Source: Sneathiella aquimaris (GTDB taxonomy: Bacteria; Pseudomonadota; Alphaproteobacteria; Sneathiellales; Sneathiellaceae). From it: a DNA stretch of 64,000 nucleotides. The position numbers and the translations under genes are program-made. Position 1 is the stretch's first letter; the number at the start of each line of letters is the position of its first letter. Of this stretch, positions 54,605 to 64,000 are shown piece after piece. The notes under the pieces are model-generated. The model worked only from the letters and a program-made list of their open reading frames with translations. It did no database searches and had not been told where the DNA came from. The DNA lies in contig NZ_CP112881.1 of assembly GCF_026409565.1 (NCBI RefSeq), positions 2,673,501-2,737,500 of the forward strand, given 5' to 3'.

Positions 54605-56971
54605 TTAATAGAGTGGGCGACCTGCGGTTAAGGCATTGACCTTTTTAATGATTGAGCTCGCGTCAATCCCATAGTGCTTATACACATCACCAATGGTTCC
54701 GGTTTGTCCAAAATGCTCAACCCCGAGTGGGATCGTCTGGTGACCCAGAACCGACCCGAGCCACGCCAAGGTCGCCGGGTGACCGTCTATCACAGTGACG
54801 ATACGGCAATGTGCAGGTATGTCCTGCAGCAGCGTTTCAATATGGGAGCTGGCCCCCTCCTGCCCACGTGAACGGGCACGTTGTGCTGCGGTCCAACCCG
54901 CGTTCAGACGATCGGCGGAGGTAACGGCCAGAACACCTATGTCACGGCGGCCTTCCGCCAGACGTCCCGCAGCCTTGATCGCTTCGGGTGCCACCACGCC
55001 CTGATATGCAATGATCACTTCGCAATTCGGCCCCGGCTGCCTTAGCCAGTAAGCGCCATCGATCGCCCCTTGGCGGAACGCACTGTCCCCCCGTTTCCCC
55101 GGCTGTTCGATCGGGTTGGTTGACAAACGCAGGTAAACCGCACCCCCCGTCTCATCCCGCAACCATGTCCGCTCATCCGGATCACCCTCGCCCTCGCGCT
55201 GTAAATAGTCAAACGCCCATTCCATGATCACCGCCAGTTCATCGGCAAAAGCAGGTTCAAAGGCCGCCAAACCGTCCTGGCTCATCCCGATCAAAGGAGT
55301 CCCGATGGATTGGTGTGCACCGCCTTCGGGCGCCAATGTCACACCAGAAGGCGTTCCGACCAAAAGAAAACGTGCATCCTGATAGCAAGCATAATTAAGA
55401 GCATCCAGCCCACGGCTGACAAACGGATCGTATAGAGTTCCAACAGGTATTACTCGCTTGCCAAAAAGGCTATGCGAGAGGCCCGCAGCCCCTAGAAGAA
55501 GCATCAGGTTCATCTCGGCGATACCGAGTTCAAGATGTTGACCCTCAGGTGTAAATTCCCATTTCGCGGTTGATGGGATGCGATGCTCGATGAACGCATC
55601 CGCCTGTGCAGTGCGGGCAAAAAGTTTACGGCGATTAACCCATGACCCCAGACCTGTTGTGCCGGTGACATCGGGTGACATCGTCAGAATTCGATCGGCC
55701 ATCGTCCCGCCGGTCTTGCCAAGGCCGTCAAGAATTTTGCCAAAGGCTGCTTGAGTGGATATCTCGCGATCGGTGATGCTGTCGATCCGGGGCACGTCGA
55801 TCTGTTCGTCGCAATATCGGCGGGCACCTTTTGCGAAAAATGGTACATCCGACAGAAACGCACGAAGGGCGCCCGGGTCCTCCACTCCGGCGATGGGTTC
55901 CCACTCTTGTCCTTCATCCACACCCATATGAGCCTGCCAGTCCTTAAACTGAGGGACATTCATCAGGCCTCCGTGGTTATCCTTATGCCCGGCGATTGGT
56001 GTCCCCCACCCTTTCACGGTATAGGCCAGAAAGCAAACAGGGCGGTCATGATCAATCCTGGCAAAAACCTCGGCCATGGTCTCTACACAGTTGCCCCCAA
56101 GATTTTCCATTAATGCAGCCAGTTCCTCATCACTGCGCCGCCCCAAAAGCTCGCTCACATCTCCCTGATCACCAAGATCATCCATCAAACGCTGACGCCA
56201 CACCTCACCTCCCATATAGGTAAGTGCCGCAAATTCCTGATTTGGACAGGCATCAATCCACGCCCGCAACTTATCACCGCCCGGTTCGGCAAACGCCGCG
56301 CGCTGGAGGGAGCCATGCTTCACGCGCACCACGTCCCATCCAAACGCATCGAAGATTTTTTCGATCCGACCAAACAGCCCTTCACGGACAACACCATCAA
56401 GCGACTGCCGGTTATAGTCGATAATCCACCAACAGTTCCGCAGATCGTTCTTCCAACCTTCCTGCAAGGTTTCATAAACGTTCCCTTCGTCAAGCTCGGC
56501 GTCGCCCACAAGCGCGACCATCCGACCAAAAGGCGCCCCCTTCCCCCAGGATTTCGCAGCAATATAATCCTGCATCAACGACGCAAAGGAGGTGATGGCA
56601 ACACCAAGACCGACCGAGCCAGTCGAGAAATCAACGTCATCAATATCCTTGGTTCGGCTGGGATAACTCTGCGCCCCCTCAAAGCCACGAAAATTCTCCA
56701 GTTTCTCGCGGGTCTGGTTTCCCATGAGATACTGCATCGCGTGGAAGACAGGGCTGGCATGGGGCTTCACAGCCACCCTGTCCTCAGGGCGAAGCGCCGA
56801 GAAATAAAGGGCCGTCATGATCGACACCATGGACGCGCTACTGGCCTGATGTCCGCCGACCTTGATTCCATCAATTTTGGGACGAATGTGGTTAGCGTGA
56901 TGAATTGTCCAGTGCGAAAGCCACAACAGACGCTGTTCTATGGTCTTGAGATGCTTGGTTTTGGCGATCAT
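54605..56971 (-). CDS. mdeB: Thiamine-diphosphate 2-oxoacid dehydrogenase E1, MdeB-like (AceE/transketolase family)
   Basis: 788 aa, related to homodimeric pyruvate dehydrogenase E1 (AceE, 887 aa in E. coli): GGHQASSASM near the start, the ThDP area VALVGDAELDEGNVYETL followed by WWIIDYNRQSLDG, and TVKGWGTPIAGHKDNH. It lies 11 nt after mdeA. In Pseudomonas putida the same pair with an Lrp regulator degrades methionine: MdeA yields 2-oxobutyrate and MdeB is proposed to act as 2-oxobutyrate dehydrogenase E1. No E2/E3 genes are adjacent, so it would borrow them. Confidence 0.88.
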   Translation of the reverse strand: MIAKTKHLKTIEQRLLWLSHWTIHHANHIRPKIDGIKVGGHQASSASMVSIMTALYFSALRPEDRVAVKPHASPVFHAMQYLMGNQTREKLENFRGFEGAQSYPSRTKDIDDVDFSTGSVGLGVAITSFASLMQDYIAAKSWGKGAPFGRMVALVGDAELDEGNVYETLQEGWKNDLRNCWWIIDYNRQSLDGVVREGLFGRIEKIFDAFGWDVVRVKHGSLQRAAFAEPGGDKLRAWIDACPNQEFAALTYMGGEVWRQRLMDDLGDQGDVSELLGRRSDEELAALMENLGGNCVETMAEVFARIDHDRPVCFLAYTVKGWGTPIAGHKDNHGGLMNVPQFKDWQAHMGVDEGQEWEPIAGVEDPGALRAFLSDVPFFAKGARRYCDEQIDVPRIDSITDREISTQAAFGKILDGLGKTGGTMADRILTMSPDVTGTTGLGSWVNRRKLFARTAQADAFIEHRIPSTAKWEFTPEGQHLELGIAEMNLMLLLGAAGLSHSLFGKRVIPVGTLYDPFVSRGLDALNYACYQDARFLLVGTPSGVTLAPEGGAHQSIGTPLIGMSQDGLAAFEPAFADELAVIMEWAFDYLQREGEGDPDERTWLRDETGGAVYLRLSTNPIEQPGKRGDSAFRQGAIDGAYWLRQPGPNCEVIIAYQGVVAPEAIKAAGRLAEGRRDIGVLAVTSADRLNAGWTAAQRARSRGQEGASSHIETLLQDIPAHCRIVTVIDGHPATLAWLGSVLGHQTIPLGVEHFGQTGTIGDVYKHYGIDASSIIKKVNALTAGRPLY

Positions 56972-56982
56972 CTTGCGCGTCC

Positions 56983-58188
56983 TTATGCTGCGGTTTGCTT
57001 CATATCCCGAGGCAGAGCCTGTTCCAGATCTGCAAATATATCAGCCGGATCTTCCAGCCCCACAGATAGCCTGACCAACCCGTCGCTAATGCCATGGGCT
57101 TGACGCTCTTGCGGCGTATAGGTCGAATGGGTCATGGAAGCCGGGTGCTGGATAAGGGTTTCAGCATCTCCCAAAGAAACTGCCCGCCCGATCATTTCAA
57201 GGCGGTTCATCATATCCTTTCCCGCCTGCATTCCGCCCTTCAGTTCAAAGGCGATCATTCCGCCCGGATTGGCCATCTGCTGCGTGGCGAGCTCATACTG
57301 AGCAAAACTCTTCAGCCCGGGATAATATACCGTACCAATGGCAGGATGCGCTTCCAGCCAAAGGGCTGTTTCCATCGCGGAAGCACAGTGACGATCCATC
57401 CGAAGGGCAAGCGTCTTTAATCCCCGCAAGATCAACATGGCATTGAAAGGGGCCATAACGGCACCGGTCATATCTTTCATGCCAATGAGCCGTATTTCGC
57501 TGATCTGCTCCTGCCCCCCAACCACCAGACCGGCGACAAGGTCACCGTGCCCGCCCAGATATTTAGTGGCGGAGTGCACCACAAGGTCAGCTCCCAGCTC
57601 AATCGGGCGGGTCAGGTAAGGGGTTGCGTAGGTGTTATCGACAACAACCAAGGCACCCGCATCATGAGCGATCGCGCTAACGGCACGAATATCAACCAAA
57701 CGCATGTTCGGATTAGCGGGTGTTTCAAAATAAACTGCGCGGGTCTTTTCACTGACAGCAGCCGACAGGTTCGCCGGATCGGTCAGATCGACATGAGTGA
57801 TCTTCACCCCCCATTTGGCGAGCCCATGACGCATGAAGGCAAAAGTGCATCCGTAAAGCGTTTCATCCACGATCAGTTCGTCACCCGGACTGAGAATGGT
57901 CCAAAGCGTTGCTGTAATCGCCCCCATTCCAGAGGACAGGGCCAACCCCGCTTCTGCCCCTTCGAGCTTGGCCACGCGGCGTTCTAAAAGATCCAGTGTC
58001 GGGTTTGAAATCCGGGAATAGACATGACCTTGTCTCTCTCCGGCGAACATCTCTGCACCTGCTTCGGCTGACTCAAACGCAAAAGTTGAGGTCAAATGGA
58101 GTGGCGGCGTCAAGGCCCCCTCGTTGTCCAGTGGATCGTAGCCATGATGAATAGCACGGGAGGCAAAGCCCTTCAGAGTGTTGGTCAT
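56983..58188 (-). CDS. mdeA: L-methionine gamma-lyase
   Basis: 401 aa from the ATG at 58188, which has AAGGA 8 nt upstream (an ATG three codons earlier sits directly on that site). PLP enzyme of the Cys/Met metabolism family: Lys in HSATKYLGGHGD, and TLYGCTFAFMRHG with the active-site Cys that marks methionine gamma-lyase rather than cystathionine lyases. The N-terminus FASRAIHHGYDPLDNEGAL strongly resembles P. putida MdeA. It splits methionine into methanethiol, ammonia and 2-oxobutyrate. Divergent from the regulator gene. Confidence 0.93.
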   Translation of the reverse strand: MTNTLKGFASRAIHHGYDPLDNEGALTPPLHLTSTFAFESAEAGAEMFAGERQGHVYSRISNPTLDLLERRVAKLEGAEAGLALSSGMGAITATLWTILSPGDELIVDETLYGCTFAFMRHGLAKWGVKITHVDLTDPANLSAAVSEKTRAVYFETPANPNMRLVDIRAVSAIAHDAGALVVVDNTYATPYLTRPIELGADLVVHSATKYLGGHGDLVAGLVVGGQEQISEIRLIGMKDMTGAVMAPFNAMLILRGLKTLALRMDRHCASAMETALWLEAHPAIGTVYYPGLKSFAQYELATQQMANPGGMIAFELKGGMQAGKDMMNRLEMIGRAVSLGDAETLIQHPASMTHSTYTPQERQAHGISDGLVRLSVGLEDPADIFADLEQALPRDMKQTAA

Positions 58189-58246
58189 TGTTGTCATCCT
58201 TCGTTTGAATATGGAAACATATTACCACACTAATCACAGTATTTTA

Positions 58247-58262
58247 TTGCCACTTATGCCAA
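58247..58262. promoter_or_regulatory. Candidate MdeR operator 1
   Basis: Half-site TATGCCAA at 58255-58262 preceded by a degenerate mirror half TTGCCACT (5 of 8 positions). It lies between mdeA and mdeR, 30.5 bp (centre to centre) from operator 2. Confidence 0.4.
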
Positions 58263-58276
58263 CTTTTGATACCAAA

Positions 58277-58293
58277 TTGACATAATATGCCAA
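58277..58293. promoter_or_regulatory. Candidate MdeR operator 2
   Basis: Near-perfect palindrome TTGACATA-A-TATGCCAA (one mismatch between arms), 12 bp upstream of the mdeR ATG, sharing the half-site TATGCCAA with operator 1. Position suggests autoregulation as well as control of mdeA. Confidence 0.5.
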
Positions 58294-58305
58294 AAAAGGA
58301 ACCTT

Positions 58306-58764
58306 ATGGACAACAAAGACCGACAGATAATCCGCGCACTTCAAAAAAACGGGCGAATGACCAATCAGGAGCTTGCTGAACTCGTAAATCTATCGCCGTC
58401 CCCCTGCCTGCGCCGGATACGCAACCTTGAAGCCCGCGGCGCCATTCTGGGGTATGCCGCCAGTGCCGATGCCGCCGCCTACGGACTTCCCGTGACGGTC
58501 TTTGTCAGGATAAAGCTCGAACGGCACAATGAAAAAGACGTTCAACATTTTGAAGCCCGCATCAAGGCGTTAGACGAAGTGCTTGAATGTCACGTCTTGA
58601 CGGGGCAGACAGACTATCAGCTTCGCGTCGTGGTCGCCGATCTCGACAGTTACGAAACGTTCATCCGTAACCGCATCCATCCGATCGGGTGCATCGCATC
58701 CATCGACACCAGCTTCGTATATGGTACGGTCAAAAAGACAGCGGTCTTCCCGCCCCTGAAATAA
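58306..58764 (+). CDS. mdeR: Lrp/AsnC-family regulator, MdeR-like
   Basis: 152 aa, full Lrp length. N-terminal winged helix (QIIRALQKNGRMTNQELAEL, recognition part SPSPCLRRIRNLEARGAI), then the RAM effector domain (ECHVLTGQTDYQLRVVVADLDSYETFI). AAGGA 5 nt before the ATG. Divergent from mdeA-mdeB, the same arrangement as mdeR in P. putida, where it activates methionine breakdown. Confidence 0.9.
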   Translation: MDNKDRQIIRALQKNGRMTNQELAELVNLSPSPCLRRIRNLEARGAILGYAASADAAAYGLPVTVFVRIKLERHNEKDVQHFEARIKALDEVLECHVLTGQTDYQLRVVVADLDSYETFIRNRIHPIGCIASIDTSFVYGTVKKTAVFPPLK

Positions 58765-59558: not shown

Positions 59559-60866
59559 TTATGACATGCTATTTGGTAGCCATGTAGACAGGATTGGGAA
59601 TTGTATCAGGACATACAGAACAACCAGTTCGATCAGGAACAAAGGCGTAATCCCTTTATAGAGTGTGGTGAGTTTTAAGTCTTTATCCGAGGCACTGACC
59701 ACCGCAAACAAATTGATCCCTACTGGCGGAGTGATTACCCCGACTTCCATCAACTTGACTACGATGACGGCAAACCAAATGGGATCAAAGCCCATATTGT
59801 CGGCAACCGGAACCAGAACAGCTGCTGCCATAATCAGGATCGCAAGGCTATCCAGAAACATCCCAAGGATCAGGAACAGAACCACCATCGCGAACAGGAA
59901 ACCTGCATTTCCCAATCCCAAATCTGTGATCAAACTGATTGCTTCGCGCACAAATCCGGAGAATACCAGAAAGCGTGAGAATGTGAGCCCACCGATCACG
60001 ATAACGGCAAGAACAGCAGAGATTTTCACGGTCGCCTTAATCGCTTCCCAAATATCACCGCCATTCTGCCGCTTCATCATCAGAACAATCAGAATTGCTC
60101 CAACCGCGCCGACACTACCCGCAGCGGAAGGCGGAACTGTGCCGGTGTAAATCCCACCGATAACAATAAACGACAGCAGCAAAACTGCCCAAATAGGCTT
60201 CAATGAGGAAAACTTATCACCCCAGCTATATTTTTCAGAATGCTGAGGCACCCAGTCCGGTTTCACGCGGGCGATGATCATGATACCGACGATGTATCCG
60301 ACGACAGTAATAGTGCCAGGAATAATACCGGCAAGAAGAAGTTTCCCAACAGATTGCTGGGTCAGCAATGCATAGATAACAAAAGTGATAGACGGCGGAA
60401 TAAAAGCCGCGAGCGTGCCAGATGCAGCGATCACGCCCCCTGCCAGTCCTTTGTTGTAGCCAAGGCGTGTCATCTCTGGATACGCAATCCGTGTAAACAC
60501 CGCAGAATTCACAATAGTGCTTCCAGATACTGCCGCAAAAGCCGCAGAAGAAGCCACCGTTGACATAAGTAAGGAGCCTTTCAGACCGGCCAGCCATTTA
60601 TGGGCAGCATCAAACATATCCCGCATCAGCCCTGCATTGGAAGCCACAAGCCCCATCAGAATAAACATCGGCACAACAACAAGAGAGTAGTTTGAGGCAA
60701 CCTCGAACGGCATACCGAAAAGAATGATTGTCGCTTTTGCAACTCCAAATTGAAGACTAAGTCCGACGGCTCCCACTGTAAATAATGCAGCCCCAATGGG
60801 CATTCCCGTGAAAATAAGAACAATAAGCGAGAGGATACCCAATCCACCTGACAATATCGCGTCCAT
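59559..60866 (-). CDS. dctM: TRAP transporter large membrane subunit (DctM family)
   Basis: 435 aa, about 12 hydrophobic segments. DctM signatures include SGSTIVNSAVFTRIAYPEM, AASGTLAAFIPPSITFVIYA and the C-terminal GVITPPVGINLFAV. The main transport subunit, driving sodium-coupled uptake of a carboxylate. Overlap-free but only 3 nt after dctQ. Confidence 0.93.
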   Translation of the reverse strand: MDAILSGGLGILSLIVLIFTGMPIGAALFTVGAVGLSLQFGVAKATIILFGMPFEVASNYSLVVVPMFILMGLVASNAGLMRDMFDAAHKWLAGLKGSLLMSTVASSAAFAAVSGSTIVNSAVFTRIAYPEMTRLGYNKGLAGGVIAASGTLAAFIPPSITFVIYALLTQQSVGKLLLAGIIPGTITVVGYIVGIMIIARVKPDWVPQHSEKYSWGDKFSSLKPIWAVLLLSFIVIGGIYTGTVPPSAAGSVGAVGAILIVLMMKRQNGGDIWEAIKATVKISAVLAVIVIGGLTFSRFLVFSGFVREAISLITDLGLGNAGFLFAMVVLFLILGMFLDSLAILIMAAAVLVPVADNMGFDPIWFAVIVVKLMEVGVITPPVGINLFAVVSASDKDLKLTTLYKGITPLFLIELVVLYVLIQFPILSTWLPNSMS

Positions 60867-60869
60867 ATC

Positions 60870-61382
60870 TTAACTCTCCGCAGAAGGGGTATATTGTTTA
60901 CGTGATTTCGGGCTCAGCTCACGGATCAAACGAGCAGACAAAGCCATCAAAGCCAATGTCGCGCCAACGGCTGCAAGCAATTTAAACGGCCAAAGCTCAA
61001 AATTGATGGCACCTGTCATGACGTCGCCTTTCTCCAAGCCCTTCATGGCCAACTTCCAGCTGAGAAACGTCAGGATTGCGAAAAAGCCGATTGTGCAAAT
61101 ATTGTTAAAGGCCGATAACAATCGGCGAAATGTTACCGGGACAGCGTTAATCAGCAAATCTACGGAAATATTGTCGTCGTCTTTTGCCGCCATTGGCATG
61201 GCAAGGAAGAGACAGCTAACCAGTAACATGCTTGAAAATTCGATGGTTCCGGTAATCGGGGCATTAAACAAAGACATTGCCAGCACATCCAACGTCCCCA
61301 GTCCGGCCATCATCAGTGCGCAGATGGCAGATAAAGTTCCTGACTTGTCTACCAACCAATCAAGAGTTCGCAACAGCATCAT
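60870..61382 (-). CDS. dctQ: TRAP transporter small membrane subunit (DctQ family)
   Basis: 170 aa, four predicted membrane helices (SGTLSAICALMMAGLGTLDVLAM and FSSMLLVSCLFLAMPMAA among them). Small DctQ-type subunit pairing with DctM. 61 bp after dctP, with a stem-loop in the gap; 3 nt before dctM. Confidence 0.88.
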   Translation of the reverse strand: MMLLRTLDWLVDKSGTLSAICALMMAGLGTLDVLAMSLFNAPITGTIEFSSMLLVSCLFLAMPMAAKDDDNISVDLLINAVPVTFRRLLSAFNNICTIGFFAILTFLSWKLAMKGLEKGDVMTGAINFELWPFKLLAAVGATLALMALSARLIRELSPKSRKQYTPSAES

Positions 61383-61443: not shown

Positions 61444-62460
61444 CTAGAGTTTTAGCTCTTTTACAAGGAAAGCTTCCACCTCTTTCGCTACGGCTTCAGC
61501 ATCCGGACCAAATTTGGCGGTGGATTGAACATATTGCCCCAGGAGCCATTTAGGCGAAAATTTCTCTTTAATCAGGTGGCTATCCGAAATCGTGATTTTG
61601 GTCAGCTTGCTACTGAATAGTTGATCTGCCTTACCTTGCAAGGTCGTTACAACTTTATTGCCTGTTACTTCACCTTTATCAGAGGCAGCCCAAAACGCTT
61701 TCTTCTGATCCTCTGACATTTCATTCAGAAGATCGTTATTGATATAAGCAAGGTAAGAACTTACCGCACCAAATTCGTAATCAACATAATATTTTGCAAC
61801 TTCGTGGATTTTAAAGACGAGATGAGCCACACGGGAGAAGTATGCACAATCAACGACGCCGCGCTGCATTGCCTCGTAAACTTCATGGGTCAGCGTATTA
61901 ACTGGCACGGCTCCCAACTCTTTGAATACTTTAGGGATGAAGGCACCAAATGTTCGAATTTTAAGGCCTTGCAGATCCGCGACTTTTTCAACCGGCTTGT
62001 TACACAACAGCACATATGGATCCAAGCCACGGAACATAAAGGGCGTAACGCCCGCCTTTTCATATGTTCTACGGGTTAGAGGAAGCGTTTGTAACGCTTT
62101 CTTGTAGAGCGCGGCAACCTGCTCCTGATTTTCAAACAACAGGGACATTCCAAACGCTTCATATGCCGGGAACTGTGAGGCGTAGTGGTTCGTTGGGAAC
62201 GAAGCAATGCCAACAACATTATTTGCAACGAAGTCCAGCATCTCTTTCTGACCGCCAAGAGATCCTCCGAAATGCAGTTTGATTTTATATTCGCCGCCTG
62301 TCCCTTGCTCCAAGGCTTCTGCAAAAGCAAGTTCAGCTTTGTTCGGTGGAAATTTCTCTGGCAGAAAATGCGCAAAATCCAATTCTTTTGCATATACGGA
62401 TTGCGCGGCAAGCAACGCGGCAGACAAACCAGCTAAAGCAACACCAACTTTACGAAACAT
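61444..62460 (-). CDS. dctP: TRAP transporter solute-binding protein (DctP family)
   Basis: 338 aa with signal peptide (VALAGLSAALLAAQSVYA). DctP features: HFLPEKFPPNKAELAFAEAL, LQGLKIRTFGAFIPKVFKELG with the Arg that usually binds the ligand's carboxylate, and VVDCAYFSRVAHLVFKIHEVAKYY. Ligand unknown, probably a carboxylic acid; the divergent CoA ligase suggests an aromatic or other acid (inference). First gene of dctPQM. Confidence 0.92.
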   Translation of the reverse strand: MFRKVGVALAGLSAALLAAQSVYAKELDFAHFLPEKFPPNKAELAFAEALEQGTGGEYKIKLHFGGSLGGQKEMLDFVANNVVGIASFPTNHYASQFPAYEAFGMSLLFENQEQVAALYKKALQTLPLTRRTYEKAGVTPFMFRGLDPYVLLCNKPVEKVADLQGLKIRTFGAFIPKVFKELGAVPVNTLTHEVYEAMQRGVVDCAYFSRVAHLVFKIHEVAKYYVDYEFGAVSSYLAYINNDLLNEMSEDQKKAFWAASDKGEVTGNKVVTTLQGKADQLFSSKLTKITISDSHLIKEKFSPKWLLGQYVQSTAKFGPDAEAVAKEVEAFLVKELKL

Positions 62461-62562
62461 TACTTATCTTCTCCACAAATAGAAGGAACTCCCGAGATGA
62501 GCCTGACTTGTTATCAACTTTTCAGATTGACTATTGACTTCATTCTGTCAGCTCAGCATCAT

Positions 62563-62582
62563 ACATGACACGAATGTCATGT
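62563..62582. promoter_or_regulatory. Perfect palindrome, candidate operator 1 between dctP and the CoA ligase
   Basis: ACATGACA and TGTCATGT, perfect 8-bp arms with a 4-bp centre (CGAA), about 100 bp upstream of both starts. Confidence 0.65.
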
Positions 62583-62598
62583 CTGGTCAATTAAAAAC

Positions 62599-62614
62599 AT
62601 GACGCCAGTGTCAT
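62599..62614. promoter_or_regulatory. Near-perfect palindrome, candidate operator 2
   Basis: ATGACG and TGTCAT with a 4-bp centre, the same design as operator 1 (one mismatch), 34 bp away centre to centre. A further lone half-site ATGACA lies at 62625-62630. Confidence 0.55.
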
Positions 62615-62666
62615 TTTCGTGTAAATGACACTGTAAACCGCCGAACAGGAGAGTTGAAAAATTCTA

Positions 62667-64000
62667 ATGAATGCAAATATTTACCATATGGAACAGGGCT
62701 TTACAGACAGAAGGGCCCTGGAAGAATTAAAGCTTGGAAAACTAAAAAAACAAATCCAGAGAGTGTATGACAACTCTCCATTCCATAAGGAAAGATTTGA
62801 TCTCGTTGGTTTTCGCCCTGAAATGTTGAAGCGCCCTGAAGATCTGAAAGATGTTCCATTTTTTGACAAAAATCAGGAACGTGCTAGTCAGGCGGAAAGC
62901 CAGAAAAAGGGGCTGACTGCCCTTGGAATGCATATCGCATGTGACCCAAGAGATGTTCAGCGGATCAGCTCTACATCAGGCACCACAGGCAACCCGACTT
63001 TTACCGGCTACACACAAAACGACAGTGAGGTCACAGCAGAAATTATGCGCCGGGCGATGCCGATCATGAACGCCAAACCCGGTGATATCGTGATGCATGC
63101 CTTTGTACTTTCCATGTGGATCGCAGGAGTGCCAGTTGTAGACATAATGCAAATGGCAGGTCTTTGTGTCGTCCCGATTGGCGGCACGAGCGGGGCGGAG
63201 CGGTTCGCGATTACTGCAAAATCAGTGATGCCAAAACAATTGAATTGCACTCCTTCATATGCAGTTTGGATGGCCAAAGAGCTTCAAAATAAATATGGTA
63301 TCGATCCAGCTGAATTTGGTTTTGAAAGGGTTCTACTTGCTGGTGAGCCCGGAGGTTCTATTCAGGAAGTCCGTGAAGAAATCTCAAGACTATGGGGTGG
63401 TGTGAAAATTTATGATGGTATTGGCGCCATGCATTCCAGTTTCTTCTCCTCTTTCAATTGCGACCATAACACCGGCCTGCATTTTCTGGCTGAAGACTTT
63501 GTCCATCTGGAGCTTATCGACCCGACAACCGGGGAGTTACTCCCTCTCGAAGACGGTGTGAGTGGTGAAGCCGTTTATACTGCTCTTGATAAGGAATGCG
63601 CACCAGCCATCCGTTTTCGCTCTGGCGATCGCTTTGCACTTCACCGGGGCCCATGCGCCTGCGGCCGCGACACCCTCAGATACCATGTGGAAGGTCGGAC
63701 AGACGATATGCTGCTGGTGCGCGGGGTGAATGTTTTTCCCGCCGCTATTAAAGCAATTGTCAGCCGCTTTGGTGATCGTGGCGTCACCAATAACATGCGG
63801 GTCGTCCTAACGTCAAAACCACCGGTGCAAGAGCCTCCGCTTGAGATTCGAGTTGAGCTCGGCACAGGCTTGCCTGACGAAACTTCAAAAAACCTAGCCG
63901 CCGAAATGTCAGCAGTAATTTCAAAAGAATTACGGTTCAAATGCCAGATTACCTTACAGGCGAGCGGCACACTTGACGCTTTTCAGCAAGACAAGAACCA
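62667..64000 (+). CDS. Phenylacetate-CoA ligase family protein (partial, runs off right edge)
   Basis: 444 codons visible without a stop. ATP/AMP motif SSTSGTTGNPT near residue 110 and the PaaK-type sequence YDGIGAMHSS (about residue 250), then FRSGDRFALHRGPCACGRDTLRYHVEGRTDDMLLVRGVN. It belongs to the adenylate-forming PaaK-like ligases that attach CoA to aryl acids. AGGAGAG is 15 nt before the ATG, a rather long spacing; the ATG at 62688 is an alternative. Divergent from the TRAP transporter, sharing the palindromes, so uptake and CoA activation of one acid may be co-regulated. Confidence 0.88.
   Translation, partial: MNANIYHMEQGFTDRRALEELKLGKLKKQIQRVYDNSPFHKERFDLVGFRPEMLKRPEDLKDVPFFDKNQERASQAESQKKGLTALGMHIACDPRDVQRISSTSGTTGNPTFTGYTQNDSEVTAEIMRRAMPIMNAKPGDIVMHAFVLSMWIAGVPVVDIMQMAGLCVVPIGGTSGAERFAITAKSVMPKQLNCTPSYAVWMAKELQNKYGIDPAEFGFERVLLAGEPGGSIQEVREEISRLWGGVKIYDGIGAMHSSFFSSFNCDHNTGLHFLAEDFVHLELIDPTTGELLPLEDGVSGEAVYTALDKECAPAIRFRSGDRFALHRGPCACGRDTLRYHVEGRTDDMLLVRGVNVFPAAIKAIVSRFGDRGVTNNMRVVLTSKPPVQEPPLEIRVELGTGLPDETSKNLAAEMSAVISKELRFKCQITLQASGTLDAFQQDKN

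Follow-up and report, generated by a model that had tools for sequence, protein, structure and literature searches.

Near one end of the analysed stretch of Sneathiella aquimaris DNA (64,000 nucleotides, hereafter the window), two palindromes lie between divergently oriented genes for the uptake and the CoA activation of an acid, raising the question of which regulator recognises them. On the minus strand, all three subunits of a TRAP (DctPQM) transporter are encoded by dctP, the solute-binding protein gene (61444 to 62460; PF03480, E 2.2e-37), dctQ, the small membrane subunit gene (60870 to 61382; PF04290, E 9.6e-22), and dctM, the large membrane subunit gene (59559 to 60866; PF06808, E 1.6e-75; TIGR00786 over its cut-off). 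On the plus strand, a CoA ligase gene begins at 62667 and is cut by the window end at 64000, its true end lying at 64031 in the window frame. The encoded ligase is PaaK-like but not PaaK, scoring 195.5 bits against a cut-off of 646.3 for the PaaK equivalog TIGR02155 (444 of its 454 amino acids were scored).

The original prediction had held that no regulator is encoded nearby. This was an edge effect, because the window stops inside the ligase gene. When the next 18 kb past the window end were examined, the ligase gene was found to be followed in the same direction by genes for an enoyl-CoA hydratase (ECH; 64028 to 64828 in the window frame, 2028 to 2828 of contig L011; ECH_1 PF00378, E 6e-40) and for a TetR regulator of 231 amino acids (64838 to 65533 in the window frame, 2838 to 3533 of L011; TetR_N PF00440, E 3.9e-10). 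The tetR gene, whose start lies 838 bases past the window end, is the third and last gene of an operon ordered ligase-ECH-tetR, in which the ligase and ECH genes overlap and tetR follows 9 bp after ECH. The regulator is a TetR-family member by domain, its N-terminal helix-turn-helix domain scoring 39.8 bits against the PF00440 gathering score of 24. The family assignments of the ligase, ECH and DctP are generic and indicate no particular substrate. Farther into the window, a methionine gamma-lyase gene (56983 to 58197, over the curated cut-off) adjoins a pyruvate-dehydrogenase-E1-like gene (54605 to 56971), and a divergent Lrp-type regulator gene (58306 to 58764) lies in the same region; positions 54605 to 58764 look like a module that would convert methionine through 2-oxobutyrate to propionyl-CoA.

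Both palindromes are situated in the 206-bp gap between dctP (minus strand) and the ligase gene (plus strand). Putative operator 1 (62565 to 62580, assigned to neither strand; ATGACACGAATGTCAT) is a perfect palindrome, ATGACA-CGAA-TGTCAT, whose palindromy reaches out to ACATGACA/TGTCATGT. Putative operator 2 (62599 to 62614, likewise assigned to neither strand; ATGACGCCAGTGTCAT) reads ATGACG-CCAG-TGTCAT, with one mismatch, and starts 34 bp from the start of operator 1. Thus, a perfect and a one-mismatch copy of ATGACA-N4-TGTCAT, 34 bp apart in a divergent gap, re-read exactly as originally claimed. Across the whole window, the 12-base pattern was in weak excess within two mismatches (8 matches against 3.23 expected). 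When the gap itself was shuffled with its dinucleotides preserved, at least one site within one mismatch appeared in 75 of 20,000 shuffles, two sites in 0 of 20,000 and a perfect site in 0 of 20,000, so the pair is not a product of chance; a twin palindrome of comparable quality and of any sequence arose in 0 of 1,500 gap shuffles.

The only close relative found was G023, a same-genus genome, apparently metagenome-assembled and from Sneathiella, which was counted together with contig L067 as one relative; a contig scan with the ligase, whose reach was close relatives, returned L067 as the single orthologue. Both sites and all six genes are kept in G023/L067, and the TetR orthologue is near-identical to that of the window (94%). 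None of the 61 positions from 62557 to 62617, which include both palindromes, differs in G023, whereas the dctP flank shows 9 differences in 96 positions and the ligase flank 14 in 48. Three of these 14 substitutions fall in a lone half-site read from the sequence (62623 to 62633, plus strand; AAATGACACTG), which, together with the right arm of operator 2, makes up a perfect inverted repeat of 11 bp. This half-site had been part of the original prediction and is indeed present, but because of the three substitutions it is not conserved, and it is probably dispensable.

The regions upstream of related tetR genes were then compared, taking the 350 bp that precede the matched start in each of 22 independent homologues of the TetR gene, a set that leaves out the window, G023 and the near-duplicates L124, L126 and L130. 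The word ATGAC-N6-GTCAT, which the regulatory gap of the window also carries, was present within zero, one and two mismatches at 3, 9 and 13 of the 22 loci, whereas 100 shuffled sets of these loci gave means of 0.00, 0.16 and 2.50 and maxima of 0, 1 and 6. Upstream of 16 other TetR genes used as controls (ten weak matches from the TetR search and six weak profile matches), the corresponding counts were 0, 1 and 1, the single match being L122; once three mismatches are allowed, the difference narrows to 20 of 22 loci against 7 of 16 controls. Inspection of Sulfitobacter locus L068 had led to the word being shortened from its initial 12 fixed bases to 10. Absence of the motif from related loci, named at the outset as an argument against joint control, was not observed: within two mismatches, the initial 12-base word occurred at 9 of the 22 related loci and at 0 of the 16 controls, and the 10-base core at 13 of 22. 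Furthermore, when all 1024 five-base half-sites were listed with 13 spacers (0 to 12), ATGAC-N6-GTCAT shared the top rank, at 9 loci, with AATGA-N8, a frame shift of the same word, and the best half-site in 60 shuffled sets reached 7 loci. The original prediction could name no known regulator for the motif; this association of word and TetR across genomes points to the operon TetR as the probable binder.

Several of these loci carry the word in tandem. Two copies lie 18 bp apart in Sulfitobacter L068, and two perfect core copies, also 18 bp apart, precede tetR in G025 (L076/L112). Upstream of tetR in G017 (L080/L130), three copies spaced 18 bp apart can be read in the sequence; the central copy is degenerate, while the outer two are also listed as matches to the word. 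Such copies suggest that several TetR dimers may bind side by side. The spacing itself is not kept, being 34 bp in the window and 18 bp in several relatives.

The gene context of the related regulators was also examined, and most of the distant homologues have an uptake system as well as ligase and ECH genes for neighbours. Both a CoA ligase and an ECH gene were recognised near the TetR gene at 22 of 28 other loci with wider context, a count that includes G023 and some near-duplicates, and the window TetR gene itself stands beside both. At L138 the ligase alone was recognised, and at L074, L075, L137, L139 and L140 neither gene was. Since recognition relied solely on BLAST against 24 proteins from the window, Sulfitobacter and Cupriavidus clusters, and since L137 and L140 are short contigs, module genes may have been missed. 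The word was found within two mismatches at 13 of 16 loci with ligase and ECH and at 0 of 6 without both, a split that was defined post hoc over partly related loci and to which no probability is attached.

Plasmids of Sulfitobacter, Cupriavidus and Azospirillum bear clusters that, like the window, group a transporter, a CoA ligase, ECH and a related TetR, but in them an ABC transporter replaces the TRAP transporter, and a long AMP-binding ligase the PaaK-like one. The Sulfitobacter cluster has the same operator word as the window. The Cupriavidus (L069) and Azospirillum (L165, L166) clusters add an acrylyl-CoA-reductase-family gene, and their gaps contain no site within two mismatches; at L104 and L102, the module is present with the word at three mismatches only. 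ATGAC half-sites at another spacing are visible in the Azospirillum gaps (L165, 6845 to 7000; L166, 6864 to 7006) and may represent an operator of this TetR clade that has drifted. The added gene, which in Cupriavidus (L069, 291 to 1292) scores 431.1 bits with the AcuI model, whose cut-off is 440, joins the ligase, ECH and ABC transporter genes in the Cupriavidus and Azospirillum clusters alike; its presence in these modules hints at a three-carbon acyl-CoA product.

Within the S. aquimaris genome (3.94 Mb), a single place carries the perfect 12-base form and 29 carry it with at most one mismatch, compared with 4 for the reversed pattern. All but one of the 27 other one-mismatch places (26) lie inside length-predicted genes, which is what a regulator acting locally would lead one to expect. 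A wider regulon in this genome was rejected, no other promoter being clearly matched among these 27 places. One site (L095) lies in a gap without an evident promoter, and another (L099) near the start of, but inside, an exporter gene. At L096 (1501 to 1516), a one-mismatch palindrome overlaps the beginning of a further enoyl-CoA hydratase gene, a weak candidate for a second target. Across 386 genomes of the class, the strict consensus ATGACRYTRAYGTCAT matched in 22 genomes, and the reversed-pattern control gave 0 among the matches listed. The strict consensus stood beside a TetR gene of the clade in one genome, G025 (L149 and L163 of the 24 loci scanned); of the remaining 22 sites, 19 fall within open frames of 60 codons or more, and L146, L151 and L154 do not. 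The exact ATGACRYTRAYGTCAT is absent from the genome of the window, whose two sites differ from it at one and two central bases. Because G025 alone had the strict word beside such a regulator, the word by itself predicts little, and its use as a predictor of clade TetR loci was discarded (22 genomes matched, one with a clade TetR).

Regarding the regulator itself, the best curated family match of its DNA-binding half was NCBIfam FadR, at 43 bits with a cut-off of 200, and the best solved chains were 3whb and 1vi0, over residues 34 to 94. Identity with Bacillus FadR was rejected, as this score is far from the cut-off and the N-terminal part alone aligns; identity with AcuR was likewise rejected (29.6 bits with the NCBIfam AcuR model, cut-off 247). 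A single-sequence structure model of the L067 orthologue was all helical and of poor quality (mean pLDDT 47.9). Searches with the TetR protein in 60 relatives, 386 genomes of the class and 397 of the phylum, with at most 7 candidates per genome scored in the class and phylum sets so that some may have been missed, yielded distant homologues only beyond G023, about 20-32% identical to the window TetR. In a quick tree from which L054 and L058 were left out, the window TetR was placed beside a long Cupriavidus branch (fork support 83) and inside a 24-row clade (support 84).

To relate the palindromes to transcription, promoter-like pairs were sought by a consensus scan, which gave 4 matches between 62400 and 62750 against 0.5 expected. 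The pair CAGACA-16-TATGAT (62558 to 62585, minus strand) faces dctPQM, and operator 1 occupies nearly all of its spacer. The pair TTGACT-17-CATCAT (62534 to 62562, plus strand) faces the ligase gene and is followed closely downstream by both operators. With the promoters taken as consensus matches, the sites are placed in a way that suits a repressor of both units. We consider it probable that the palindromes are operators of the operon TetR, which would repress uptake, CoA activation and its own gene and be released by the acid or its CoA ester; binding, repression and self-control at these sites are inferred. In the absence of substrate, TetR dimers would occupy the operators and shut off the two divergent promoters, that of dctPQM by filling nearly all of the likely -35/-10 spacer. 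Blocking the ligase-ECH-tetR operon would also entail self-repression, because tetR sits in that operon. An organic acid entering through the TRAP transporter would be converted to its CoA ester, and this ester, or the free acid, would bind TetR and free both promoters; by analogy, the ester is the more likely inducer. The original interpretation is borne out in part: the joint control of import and CoA activation that it predicted finds support in the order of the genes, in their conservation and in the association seen across genera.

Other explanations were weighed against this repressor. The sites could belong to a regulator encoded elsewhere, of the MarR, GntR/FadR or another TetR type, with the operon TetR acting at other places. 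MarR- and GntR-type sites may resemble such palindromes, and the genome contains 8 other, weak matches to the operon TetR (best E 1.5e-6). Nevertheless, the word tracks the clade of the operon TetR from genus to genus and hardly occurs ahead of the 16 control genes, all of which are themselves TetR genes; moreover, one protein in the genome, the operon TetR, matches the clade profile with an E-value of 1e-15 or lower, and 26 of the 27 other one-mismatch sites fall inside length-predicted genes. A regulator encoded elsewhere is thus improbable.

We assign a similarly low likelihood to the possibility that TetR activates, or that it acts oppositely on the two promoters through the two sites. The unequal distances of the sites from the two divergent promoters would agree with such a mode of action, some TetR members do activate, and the NCBIfam activators DhaS and FasR are among the weak matches of this regulator; against it stand the near-complete filling of the likely dctP promoter spacer by operator 1 and the location of both sites downstream of the ligase-side promoter, both promoters being consensus matches. 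That the palindromes are fortuitous, or part of an RNA or terminator feature that involves no regulator, is very unlikely: although the whole-window count at two mismatches is mildly above chance only, the pair was reproduced in none of the 20,000 gap shuffles, the 61-bp block is identical in G023, the word is associated with the clade as a whole, and a terminator-like site was looked for and not found.

Repression by the operon TetR has parallels in described systems. According to PMC3017554, AcuR of Rhodobacter sphaeroides represses its own operon, acuR-acuI-dddL, with acrylate as co-inducer, and its operator is TAATAGAC-N6-GTCTATTA. A repressor gene within its own operon and the core GAC-N6-GTC, common to that operator and ATGAC-N6-GTCAT, are shared with the window, but gene content and the outer operator bases differ; the window sites were not accepted as AcuR operators, since the outer arms do not match. 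MbdR of Azoarcus sp. CIB is described in PMC4424350 as a TetR repressor of 3-methylbenzoate genes whose inducer is a CoA ester and whose operators precede the CoA-ligase gene mbdA and mbdR itself. Here too a TetR protein has operators, putative in the window, before a CoA-ligase gene, but the MbdR operator is ATAC-N10-GTAT and the pathway is another one. For the Thermus FadR, a TetR protein of fatty acid metabolism, the site is TTRNACYNRGTNYAA (PMC5597230). The resemblance of the window TetR to FadR of the Bacillus type and of Thermus lies in the DNA-binding half, far below the FadR cut-off. Positions 23 to 225 of the 228 in the clade profile align with chains of EthR, a Mycobacterium TetR protein (E about 1e-14), and EthR_C is matched by 2 of 13 clade members but not by the window TetR. 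The target genes of EthR differ from those of the window.

Among the matches listed in open-licence PMC text, no paper dealt with this TetR clade or word, and a similar word appeared in four plant WHIRLY papers only. A local TetR switch for acid uptake and activation is of a well-known kind, while the clade and the word appear to be new. Across the modules, TRAP and ABC uptake systems and PaaK-like and long AMP-binding ligases replace one another, with or without the acrylyl-CoA-reductase-family gene. It is tentatively proposed, at somewhat less than an even chance, that the word (about ATGACRYTRAYGTCAT, sometimes in tandem) is retained by a TetR clade not described before, with members in several proteobacterial families, while the parts of the module swap.

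An orphan palindrome thereby becomes part of a putative regulator-operator pair, and the promoter pair together with its sensor offers a handle on the identity of the acid taken up and activated by this bacterium. Provided that the word holds across the clade, uptake-ligase-hydratase modules whose substrate is unknown could be grouped by their sensor. Should the clade reading be true, the common sensor would indicate CoA esters of a single chemical class, and following the TetR clade could bring to light acid-degradation modules as yet unknown.
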